From the NCBI RefSeq assembly GCF_016775705.1, contig NZ_CP068760.1, positions 2,418,001 through 2,482,000 on the forward strand: a stretch of DNA of 64,000 nucleotides, in the 5' to 3' direction. The DNA is from Chryseobacterium cucumeris (GTDB taxonomy: Bacteria > Bacteroidota > Bacteroidia > Flavobacteriales > Weeksellaceae). Positions within the stretch are counted from its first letter, which is position 1. Each line of letters begins with the position of its first letter. Both the position numbers and the translations under genes were made by a program. The notes under the pieces are model-generated. The model was given only the letters and a program-made list of their open reading frames with translations, had not been told where the DNA came from and searched no databases. Below are positions 45,772 through 49,344 of the stretch, piece after piece.

Positions 45772-46116
45772 ATGAAAATAAATTTACCTGATAAGCTGTA
45801 TTATTCTATAGGAGAAGTTGCGAAAGCATTCGATGTAAACACTTCATTAATACGTTACTGGGAACAGGAATTCCCTATTATCAAGCCTAAAAAAAACAGA
45901 AAAGGGAACCGGTATTTCACTCCTGAAGACATTAAAAATCTTCAGATGATCTACCATCTCGTAAAAGAAAAAGGATATACCCTTGACGGAGCCCGTATCG
46001 CTCTGACCACCAACAGTAAAATTTCCGAAACCATTACTCTGATCGACCGCCTGGAGTTTGTAAAAGCTGAACTGATCAAGCTGAAAGAGTCTTTAGGAGA
46101 ACGGGAAGAGGATTAA
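45772..46116 (+). CDS. MerR-family transcriptional regulator
   Basis: 114 residues from the ATG at 45772. The winged HTH 'YSIGEVAKAFDVNTSLIRYWEQEFPIIKPKKNRKGNRYFTPEDI' (positions about 10-53, in part) matches MerR. The remaining 60 residues are a short coiled coil, with no effector domain. Such short MerR proteins are common next to tatC or RNA-processing genes in Bacteroidota, but not here. Ligand and targets unknown. Confidence 0.92.
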   Translation: MKINLPDKLYYSIGEVAKAFDVNTSLIRYWEQEFPIIKPKKNRKGNRYFTPEDIKNLQMIYHLVKEKGYTLDGARIALTTNSKISETITLIDRLEFVKAELIKLKESLGEREED

Positions 46117-46453: not shown

Positions 46454-46684
46454 GATCAATTAATAAGGTTAATAAGTATGATGAAAAAATTACAAAAACC
46501 AAGCCGTTTGAAGAAATGCTATATAAAAAGCAATCAAGAATTTCAGTATCAATTACGAAATTATATCGCATAAAAGACAATATTCCCACCACCTTTTAAA
46601 CCATAAAACACTTTCTCTTTATCATATTTAACCATTTCATTATCAGCTATTGCAGTGCTTTATTTTTATTATTACGTTTACTAT

Positions 46685-47944
46685 ATGATGAGAAAAAACT
46701 ATTACCGGAAACTGGCATTGATGGTCACATTGCTGACTGTTTTATTAGCCTATCAGAAATACACCAGTCGTGAAAAAGAACCTTTTCCTGAAGTTACCTT
46801 TATTAAAGATTCTTCAATACGGGATCTATCAGATTTTGATCCTAATCAACTGGACAAAGAACAGTGGCTGAAACTTGGATTTTCAGAGAAACAAACTGCT
46901 ACTATCCTTAAGTATAAAGATATGATAGGAGGAAAATTTACTTCAAAAGAGCAGTTGAAAAAATGTTATGCTATTTCCGAAGAGAAATTCAGTGAACTTG
47001 CCTCTTTCATCTTACTTCCTGAAGTAACAGAAAAAAAGGATCCAAAAGGATTCTCTTCCTACGGAAAGAAAGAAATTCTGGTTTCAGCGAAATTCAATCC
47101 TGATCAGTTTTCTGTCCACGACTGGCTTAAGATGGGTTTCAGTGAAAAGCAGGCAGAAGCTATTATAAAGTATAAAAATTATCTCGGGGGAAGTTTTATC
47201 AGTAAGGAAAAGTTTAAAGAATGCTTCATCATTTCCCCGGAAAATTACAGCAAAATCGAACCTTATCTTTTGCTGCCGGCAAAAACTCCGGAAAACTTCA
47301 GGAATTTCGCGAAGGATAATCCTGTAAAATCCAGAATTCAATATCATATTTTTGATCCTAATCAACTGGACTTAGAGGGCTGGAAAACACTTGGATTCTC
47401 AGAAAAACAAGCAATCACAATCCTCAATTACCGGAACCGGAATTTAAGAGGAAGCTTTAAAAGCCTTGACGATCTGCAGAAATGTTTTGTGATTTCTGCT
47501 GAGAAATTTCAGGAAATGAAACCTTATATCAAACTTCAGGAAAAACAGCAGGAAAAAACAGACTTTTCAAAAACAGACCTTAATACCATTACGTTTAAAC
47601 AGCTTATAGAATTCGGACTGGATGAAAAAAGTGCAGGTTCAATCATTGGTTTCAGAAAGAAACTGGGAGGCTTTATGAATAAGCAGCAAATTCTAAGTAC
47701 TTACAACATCGATCAGGACCTGGTTCAGAAACTGATTTCAATAGCGCCATTGAATACATCAGATGTTCCCCGGTACTCATTAGTAAATGCACCGGAGGAA
47801 TGGCTTAAAAATCATCCTTATTTCAAGTACTCAGCAGATAAAATCATATTCTACAGGATTAGTAATCCAGATGATAAAAAAATATGGAAACTTTTAAAAC
47901 TGAAACCTGAGTATGAAGAAAGAATGAAATTATATGTAAAATAA
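46685..47944 (+). CDS. Membrane-anchored protein with ComEA-like helix-hairpin-helix repeats
   Basis: 419 residues starting at ATG-ATG (46685/46688); an extension upstream to 46655 would only add a Tyr-rich stretch. One membrane segment (about 13-27) is followed by at least four HhH-like units of 60-80 residues. These are 'FDPNQLDKEQWLKLGFSEKQ', 'FNPDQFSVHDWLKMGFSEKQ', 'FDPNQLDLEGWKTLGFSEKQ' and 'DLNTITFKQLIEFGLDEKSA', and a degenerate fifth starts 'SLVNAPEEWLKNHPYF'. Each contains the pattern 'ILkYkdxxGgkFxSkeqLkkcy'. ComEA-type HhH domains bind DNA at the cell surface during uptake; binding here is inference. Confidence 0.88.
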   Translation: MMRKNYYRKLALMVTLLTVLLAYQKYTSREKEPFPEVTFIKDSSIRDLSDFDPNQLDKEQWLKLGFSEKQTATILKYKDMIGGKFTSKEQLKKCYAISEEKFSELASFILLPEVTEKKDPKGFSSYGKKEILVSAKFNPDQFSVHDWLKMGFSEKQAEAIIKYKNYLGGSFISKEKFKECFIISPENYSKIEPYLLLPAKTPENFRNFAKDNPVKSRIQYHIFDPNQLDLEGWKTLGFSEKQAITILNYRNRNLRGSFKSLDDLQKCFVISAEKFQEMKPYIKLQEKQQEKTDFSKTDLNTITFKQLIEFGLDEKSAGSIIGFRKKLGGFMNKQQILSTYNIDQDLVQKLISIAPLNTSDVPRYSLVNAPEEWLKNHPYFKYSADKIIFYRISNPDDKKIWKLLKLKPEYEERMKLYVK

Positions 47945-48022: not shown

Positions 48023-49246
48023 TTAGTGATGCATATAACTGCCTGGTCCGTTAGTTCCTTCAATAGATTCCGGTAGAATTCCATATTTATTCCTTAAATC
48101 TACTGTTCCTAATTTTTTCCCGGAATTAATATCAATGATACTAATCGTACCGGAATTTAAGTTAGGAAGATCCAATAGATTATTCTGTACTGCTACAACA
48201 TCTTTTCCTGACTTGGTTTTAAAGAAAGCCATATGATGCGCCCCTCTGTCAGCTTCAAAAGTCTTCAAAAGCTTTAGCTGGGGAAGATTATTTATATCAA
48301 AAACAAGCACTCTTCCAGGATCTGCAAAACTTACATAGAGCTTGTTTGTATCATCAATATACATTTCAAGCGCCCAGCCTAATCCTTGTGTACTTCCGTC
48401 AAAAATCTTGGTAAAAGCATCATATTTTTTGGTTGCGGTATTGTATGGGGCAATCCAGATATCACCGCCAAGCATTGTTGTAGCAAGTGCATATTGTGGA
48501 AATTTTCCGCGAAGTAACAACACCTCAACCGGAGCGGACAAATCTGCTGGTGAGTCTGCTACCTGGTATGTTTCCTTGATTTCATAGGTATTCAGATCTA
48601 ACAAAGTACAGGTATTTCCCATTCCTGTCGTAAGATCAGGGTGAATGGTAGAAGTCACCATCATTAATCCTTTTTCCTCATTAACGGAAATGCCATGCGG
48701 ATACATGATAAACTTACCGGGATTAACCTGAATGGGAGCTTTAATCGTTTTGATAAGCTGATTATTATTAGCATTAAAAACGCCAATACTTCCGTCTTTC
48801 GGACCTCCTGCCCCACCCATAAAGGTCATAAAATATCTACCGTCATTTGTGAAAAACAAGTTTTCACCTACTGTATTCTCGCCCGTATCAATAGGAGTTG
48901 CACTGATTAATTTCGGCTGTCCGTATTGGTCTTTATCCGTTTTTATTTCATAGAGATAACTGCCTCCCAAAGCAGTGGTGAACATTTTTTTTGCATCCAG
49001 ATTGTAATAAATATGATGGGGCAATACCCCATTACCCAATTCAAGCTTACTGCTGATGTTTCCAAAATTCGGAGCTTCAGGATCAAGTTCTATAACGGCT
49101 ATTCCGTCTGATGACCCTTTTATGCTTCTGTAATCAATGTAAAACGAGGTATTATGAGGATGATCGGGATTGTGGTTCTCATTCAGGCAACCCGTGGATA
49201 TTACCAGAATAACAAACAAGAACACTGAATTCATTTTTAATTTCAT
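48023..49246 (-). CDS. YncE-like beta-propeller lipoprotein, function unknown
   Basis: 407 residues from the ATG complementary to 49244-49246, which gives a lipobox STGC with Cys20; the longer frame to 49309 lacks a proper signal start. Repeated blades such as 'NISSKLELGNGVLPHHIYYNLDAKKMFTTA' and 'GENLFFTNDGRYFMTFMGGAGGPKDGSIGVFN' are 40-45 residues long and suggest a six- or seven-bladed propeller of the quinohemoprotein/YncE kind. 'YMHH' ends it. No enzyme motif is evident. The phrase-like His residues (VLPHHIYY, RGAHHMAF, YPHGIS) recur in each blade and may bind a metal or sugar. Confidence 0.7.
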   Translation of the reverse strand: MKLKMNSVFLFVILVISTGCLNENHNPDHPHNTSFYIDYRSIKGSSDGIAVIELDPEAPNFGNISSKLELGNGVLPHHIYYNLDAKKMFTTALGGSYLYEIKTDKDQYGQPKLISATPIDTGENTVGENLFFTNDGRYFMTFMGGAGGPKDGSIGVFNANNNQLIKTIKAPIQVNPGKFIMYPHGISVNEEKGLMMVTSTIHPDLTTGMGNTCTLLDLNTYEIKETYQVADSPADLSAPVEVLLLRGKFPQYALATTMLGGDIWIAPYNTATKKYDAFTKIFDGSTQGLGWALEMYIDDTNKLYVSFADPGRVLVFDINNLPQLKLLKTFEADRGAHHMAFFKTKSGKDVVAVQNNLLDLPNLNSGTISIIDINSGKKLGTVDLRNKYGILPESIEGTNGPGSYMHH

Positions 49247-49344
49247 GGTTTTGTGATTATCATTGTTAGTATTATAAATATAAAACATTTCCAATGAAAA
49301 CAAAAACATATTACACTAATATGTGAAAAATAATAAATGACATT

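Follow-up and report, generated by a model that had tools for sequence, protein, structure and literature searches.

A membrane-anchored array of non-canonical HhH units in Chryseobacterium cucumeris, orthologous to a Riemerella protein from a natural transformation screen

Analysis of a 64,000-nucleotide stretch of the Chryseobacterium cucumeris genome (assembly GCF_016775705.1, contig NZ_CP068760.1, positions 2,418,001 to 2,482,000; here termed the window) revealed a gene for a membrane-anchored array of HhH units which, judging by sequence and unit order, is the ortholog of RA0C_RS02645 of Riemerella. We propose, with a probability of roughly 0.6, that its product is a bitopic inner-membrane protein whose flexible periplasmic chain of five ComEA-type HhH units serves DNA uptake in transformation. 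The original prediction of a multi-unit array behind a membrane anchor was borne out: a single N-terminal helix is followed by four clear HHH_3 units and one further, eroded unit.

The open reading frame (window positions 46685-47944, + strand) is nested in a longer GTG-start frame beginning at 46655. The start codon is the ATG at either 46685 or 46688, giving a product of 419 or 418 aa, respectively, and the stop codon occupies 47942-47944; amino acid numbering is counted from the ATG at 46688. The distinguished features are:

46685..47944, + strand: HhH-array gene, ortholog of Riemerella RA0C_RS02645, 419 aa
46691..46765, + strand: N-terminal transmembrane helix, aa 2-26 (model helix 2-26 and sequence)
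46835..47017, + strand: HhH unit U1, aa 50-110, FDPN type, hairpins GFS / AIS
47093..47275, + strand: HhH unit U2, aa 136-196, FDPN type, hairpins GFS / IIS
47351..47536, + strand: HhH unit U3, aa 222-283, FDPN type, hairpins GFS / VIS; corresponds to aa 236-301 of the Riemerella protein
47576..47752, + strand: HhH unit U4, aa 297-355, hairpins GLD / NID; equivalent of the canonical GIG unit in other Bacteroidota
47774..47941, + strand: eroded C-terminal unit U5, aa 363-418, HPYF motif; HPYI-type unit elsewhere
45772..46116, + strand: gene for a MerR-type regulator, just upstream of the array gene

The clue to the location of the protein is the predicted helix at aa 2-26 with Lys/Arg residues before it, which would act as a signal anchor with its N-terminus inside and its C-terminus outside. 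The array is likely anchored in the inner membrane, with its units in the periplasm. Of the two places originally suggested, cell surface or periplasm, the latter is the likely one and the former is disfavoured.

Pfam HHH_3 matched four stretches of the protein (E 1.8e-25; 89.3 bits, cut-off 27), and an HMM of the unit found four scoring units in all 80 named orthologs (the top 80 among 197 confirmed stretches, a set biased to Chryseobacterium). U5 was matched by eye to the C-terminal HPYI unit of other Bacteroidota; its residues H376, P377, Y378 and F379 are invariant in the 46 rows, out of 81 available, of alignment A2. The starts of U1, U2 and U3 lie 86 residues apart, U4 follows after 75 and U5 after 66, and the HhH domains are 56-62 residues long. 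The turn motif reads [LM]GFSEKQ[AT] in U1-U3 and FGLDEKSA in U4. The sole other domain above its cut-off was a marginal DUF3173 match inside U2 (26.3 bits, cut-off 25), while UBA_6, SAM_SMF and AbiJ_NTD5 scored below theirs; these four matches are probably cross-hits to the GFSxxQA turn.

An AlphaFold2 model built on 46 sequences (mean pLDDT 83.6, pTM 0.36) begins with the long N-terminal helix (aa 2-26), followed by a disordered segment, by three beads on low-confidence linkers and finally by U4-U5. The pLDDT drops under 50 at aa 28-44, 115-127 and 208-214, and U5 was modelled as helices within a block of pLDDT 91 or more. The predicted protein is therefore one of confident beads on flexible linkers. 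Its top structural match is ComEA of G. stearothermophilus (8dss_B) at U4 (Z 8.4, rmsd 2.1, 64 aligned residues), and U3 of the model matched the ComEA-related protein 2duy of T. thermophilus (Z 7.7, 62 aligned). Chains of Tex, with Z of 7.8 and 7.6, are tied with the ComEA matches, so these Z values do not separate ComEA from Tex. Also among the matches were the pseudopilins XcpX / GspK (Z 6.4 to 5.0) and photosystem II chain U. Neither these type II secretion pseudopilins nor photosystem II chain U is known to bind DNA. The best Foldseek E-value for the model was just 0.44, and a PDB sequence search with the array protein alone gave no informative match (best E 0.15). Taken as a model, the structure points to a ComEA-type HhH fold.

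The DNA contacts of ComEA are described in two papers. Residue K63 of Vibrio cholerae ComEA lies next to the GIG hairpin; the substitution K63A cuts transformation about 250-fold, and G60A has no effect (PMC3879209). For its equivalent in Bacillus subtilis, K164, conservation is described as matching or exceeding that of the HhH signature (PMC9747964). When the array was aligned by profile with B. subtilis ComEA (8dfk), its GFSEKQA faced GVGPSKA of the latter. No GhG hairpin was found in U1-U4 of the 80 named orthologs (0/640; U5 was left out of this count). The K63/K164 position is occupied by Gln in all 240 U1-U3 units, and in U4 by Ser (44), Ala (23), Asp (10) or other residues (3 of 80). 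The position before it is Lys or Arg in 310 of 320 units. The F.P(N) start of U1-U3 is conserved, as is one cysteine per U1-U3 unit (240/240; three in the whole protein). The cysteine position, which carries other residues in distant relatives, may be buried. The array protein also missed the cut-off of the NCBIfam comEA family (TIGR01259; 47.7 bits vs 152.35), and this result together with the altered contact residues excludes it as ComEA proper.

The notion of units that individually grip DNA in the manner of ComEA found no support, given the absence of GhG and the Gln that replaces the key lysine. Units without the hairpin residues required to contact DNA had been named in advance as the finding that would speak against DNA binding, and this is largely what was observed, yet the neighbouring Lys/Arg is kept and the ectodomain, with a pI of 9.1, is basic. 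Because of these two retained features the array may still bind DNA, and from its sequence we rate this as somewhat better than an even chance.

Comparison with other Bacteroidota suggests how the array arose. A profile search of the phylum matched 66 of 296 genomes, with 60 matches outside the family (Weeksellaceae); the comparison covered the best 24 of these 60 and certainly lacks shorter or more distant homologs. In these 24 loci the frames span 260-393 aa (median 313) and all contain a GhG motif. Their usual layout comprises a membrane helix, one FDPN, one canonical GIG and one HPYI unit in about 300 aa: 19 of the best 24 combine a canonical hairpin with one, and no more than one, FDPN-type motif, and 23 show an HPYI-like motif by a loose pattern. 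Among Flavobacteriales outside the family (loci L039-L052) the canonical hairpin is present in 8 of 14. Within the 80 named loci the FDPN pattern occurs three times in 77, twice in one and four times in two, although such pattern counts miss or add some motifs (the HMM gives four units throughout), and in 67 the U4 hairpin that corresponds to the canonical one has the sequence G[LF]D. Fourteen other family loci (L184-L197), chosen as poor matches, carry one (2 loci), two (8), three (3) or four (1) FDPN motifs; no GhG was seen at the hairpin position in these 14, and three GhG strings occur elsewhere in them.

Loss of the canonical hairpin thus looks family-wide in the loci examined, with a varying number of FDPN units, and the 80 named orthologs show amplification of the FDPN unit to three and decay of the GIG hairpin. 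In the named set each of U1, U2 and U3 keeps about 70% identity from species to species, but the three share 42-49% with one another within a protein, so the amplification predates the named genera. No earlier description of unit amplification and loss of canonical DNA contacts was found in the available text of the open-licence literature.

Natural variants were identified as well. Within the genus, the ortholog of genome G028 (L037, 5821-6864) has lost U2 and is a 348-aa frame, and that of G075 (L186, 5475-7094) has U2 doubled in a frame of 540 aa, its second and third units both averaging 75% likeness to U2 of the named set. The ortholog of G029 (L038, 5699-6971), also a genome of the genus, is split by a frameshift near its C-terminus, due to either an assembly error or pseudogene formation.

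Orthologs are carried by all 35 sampled genus genomes besides the source genome, and the family sample gave an array match in 192 of 197 genomes, representing 29 of 33 genera. Named relatives with the array belong to Chryseobacterium, Kaistella, Epilithonimonas, Bergeyella, Soonwooa and Riemerella. The array characterises the family as a whole rather than the window locus alone, and these counts dispose of the view that it is an unusual single protein of its own genome. ComEC was also matched in 192 of the 197 family genomes. The array is missing from G063, G079, G082, G088 and G102, and ComEC from G079, G088, G102, G145 and G207. For the joint absence in three genomes, the Fisher p of 8e-5 overstates the link, as G079 and G102 belong to one genus and G088 is 56% complete. 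Genome G082 (99% complete) has ComEC and lacks the array even by profile, and G145 (81% complete) and G207 (88% complete) have the array without ComEC.

Natural transformation of Riemerella anatipestifer has been studied in a transposon screen (PMC8459023), in which mutant No. 1207, with an insertion in RA0C_RS02645, transformed below detection (wild type, 5.5e-5). The product is described there as a predicted periplasmic HhH protein with the domain at aa 236-301, is credited with three HhH domains, and has Chryseobacterium homologs at 52.29% identity. The gene lies outside the six of 16 genes predicted to be in operons, and it is one of four of the eight essential genes without homologs in well-known machineries. 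In the text available to us, Table 2 lists no markerless mutant of RA0C_RS02645, and neither a complementation of its mutant nor a discussion of its hairpin residues was found. In another Bacteroidota species, Porphyromonas gingivalis, replacement of comEA (PGN_0421; ComEA domain at aa 94-165) with a resistance gene abolishes competence (PMC11532111).

The link between RA0C_RS02645 and the array ortholog runs through the domain coordinates and the loci of R. anatipestifer. The window protein shares 55% identity with the ortholog of genome G109, which in turn is 95% identical to that of the named strain R. anatipestifer CCUG25054, and aa 236-301 of the G109 ortholog (L077) fall exactly on U3. 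The guess of a competence role is therefore backed by an ortholog from a transformation screen, and a similar function would be expected in Chryseobacterium. We consider it quite probable that the array protein takes part in transformation. PMC8459023 was the only paper on the array protein, and the only one naming RA0C_RS02645, found in the open-licence literature searched, where absence is weak evidence.

A gene of the MerR-type cluster was found near the array in 90 of 131 sources, a neighbour set in which some genomes are counted twice. It lies upstream on the same strand in 86 of them, and two more are upstream on the same strand with overlapping stop-to-stop frames (88 in all). The remaining two sources, in which it is about 5 kb off on the other strand, are one R. 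anatipestifer genome read twice (L082 and L097). The MerR-type product could possibly regulate the array gene. Among the 14 Flavobacteriales loci from outside the family (L039-L052), 10 have a gene for an acyl-CoA dehydrogenase, identified from Pfam for two of the loci, downstream on the same strand, in five directly adjacent and in five about 0.5 kb off; over all loci it occurs in 30. Window positions 48023-49309 (- strand) encode a protein of 428 aa whose start looks lipoprotein-like by eye; it scored 40 bits against methanethiol oxidase, below the cut-off of 650, and is probably a beta-propeller.

That no other competence genes lie nearby proved correct for ComEC, DprA and DUF5689: their only matches in the source genome are at 0.53, 0.99 and 0.82 Mb, respectively, and the window spans 2.418-2.482 Mb. 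The DUF5689 gene is placed beside one for a 986-aa CarboxypepD_reg protein, as are RS04920 and RS04915 in Riemerella. Divergent from this pair, a 396-aa nuclease of the Exo_endo_phos_3 type (L180:11173-12363, about 0.82 Mb), with a signal-like N-terminus by eye, is a candidate for the enzyme making incoming DNA single-stranded. Other HHH_3 matches in the genome are Tex, a radical SAM protein and DNA polymerase III alpha, and no second exported HHH_3 protein was found there; a second, canonical ComEA doing the work was therefore excluded.

Anchored ComEA molecules of Gram-positive bacteria form oligomers, by which they condense DNA (PMC13168374). For the array, we infer a route whose steps (periplasmic location, DNA binding, ratchet, hand-over and function in Chryseobacterium) would run as follows. 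Incoming dsDNA would cross the outer membrane, in Riemerella through the proposed RS04920/RS04915, a pair whose likes are adjacent in the source genome. Several weak contacts along one chain could then hold it near the inner membrane and prevent its sliding back, and the array would hand it on to ComEC. Multivalency built into one polypeptide would replace the self-association of Gram-positive ComEA. In the absence of the canonical hairpin residues, the FDPN-type units with their G-F-S hairpin would make the contacts, by way of the conserved Lys/Arg nearby and other basic positions. This uptake reading, which we favour, draws on the orthology, on the phenotypes of the Riemerella mutant and of the comEA replacement in P. 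gingivalis, on ComEA as top structural match, on the presence of ComEC, DprA and the RS04915/RS04920-like pair in the source genome, where no second exported HHH_3 protein turned up, and on the co-absence with ComEC. Against it stand the single transposon mutant, the near-universal presence of the gene in the family, the lack of GhG hairpins, the Gln in place of lysine, the missed comEA cut-off and the thin co-loss with ComEC.

The same missing determinants in U1-U4, together with the retained F.P(N) start, Gln and one cysteine per U1-U3 unit, would suit a periplasmic protein scaffold whose HhH units bind partners (e.g. the outer-membrane DNA channel complex or ComEC) rather than DNA, and whose loss makes the machine of the mutants fall apart. 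Such a scaffold finds parallels in the assembly-type HhH-like domains of GspK/XcpX and photosystem II chain U among the structural matches. However, the closest structural match is a DNA-binding ComEA (8dss), the ectodomain is basic with Lys/Arg kept beside the lost lysine, and the lack of effect of G60A in the same hairpin of V. cholerae ComEA (PMC3879209) suggests that a small Ser may be tolerated. We regard the scaffold as unlikely, though it is the strongest of the alternatives.

The near-universal presence of the array in the family and in all other genus genomes would also fit a housekeeping role in the envelope or in DNA handling (e.g. DNA as nutrient, envelope integrity), with an indirect phenotype in Riemerella. 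The one transposon mutant is unconfirmed in the available text of PMC8459023, and neither of the conserved neighbours, the MerR-type gene upstream and, elsewhere, the acyl-CoA dehydrogenase gene downstream, is a competence gene. ComEC, however, is equally universal in the same genomes, with overlapping absences, and replacement of comEA in P. gingivalis, a protein likened to the array by its published description (PMC11532111), has the same phenotype. A housekeeping role therefore appears improbable to us. An adhesin that binds host or matrix proteins through HhH has a precedent in ComE1 of Pasteurellaceae (PMC2601033). The array protein, however, has an N-terminal membrane anchor and no sign of surface export, and it is spread over many Chryseobacterium species. 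Many of these species are free-living, which likewise counts against an adhesin, and we give this explanation hardly any weight.

One gene from the Riemerella screen can now be seen as an amplified HhH array within a graded series of one to four FDPN motifs; new here are the cross-lineage comparison and the naming of exact residues and of natural variants with U2 missing or doubled. Our tentative suggestion, for which the odds are below even, is that Chryseobacterium, Riemerella and related genera have given up the canonical DNA-binding unit for an amplified non-canonical array (GFS, invariant Gln) that represents a distinct HhH mode. If so, DNA would be held through the number of sites and not through the affinity of each, or a multivalent scaffold would organise DNA entry without binding DNA; either form would be unlike the periplasmic ComEA proteins described in the cited papers. 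Should the array bind DNA, the accepted rule for ComEA contacts (GhG plus Lys) would be too narrow, and should it not, the rule that HhH means DNA binding would fail in a DNA-uptake protein.

Among known systems, RA0C_RS02645 is the nearest: it resembles the window protein over its whole length, with the same unit order and, in the Riemerella proteins examined, the same kind of hairpin changes. It belongs to another genus, and PMC8459023 counts three HhH domains in it, versus four clear and one eroded here. PGN_0421 of P. gingivalis is a Bacteroidota HhH protein essential for competence, the likeness resting on its description in PMC11532111. ComEA of V. cholerae is a periplasmic HhH protein needed for DNA uptake, as is proposed for the array, but as a lone free domain it carries GIG and K62/K63, whereas the array is anchored and multi-unit, without GhG or a K63 equivalent. 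Gram-positive ComEA (B. subtilis, G. stearothermophilus 8dss) shares with the array the membrane anchor and a ComEA-type fold, which in the array is predicted to lie outside the membrane. It has one DNA-binding and one oligomerisation domain, in contrast to five HhH units in one chain, and relative to the B. subtilis protein the array has Gln at the K164 equivalent and GFS in place of GVG.
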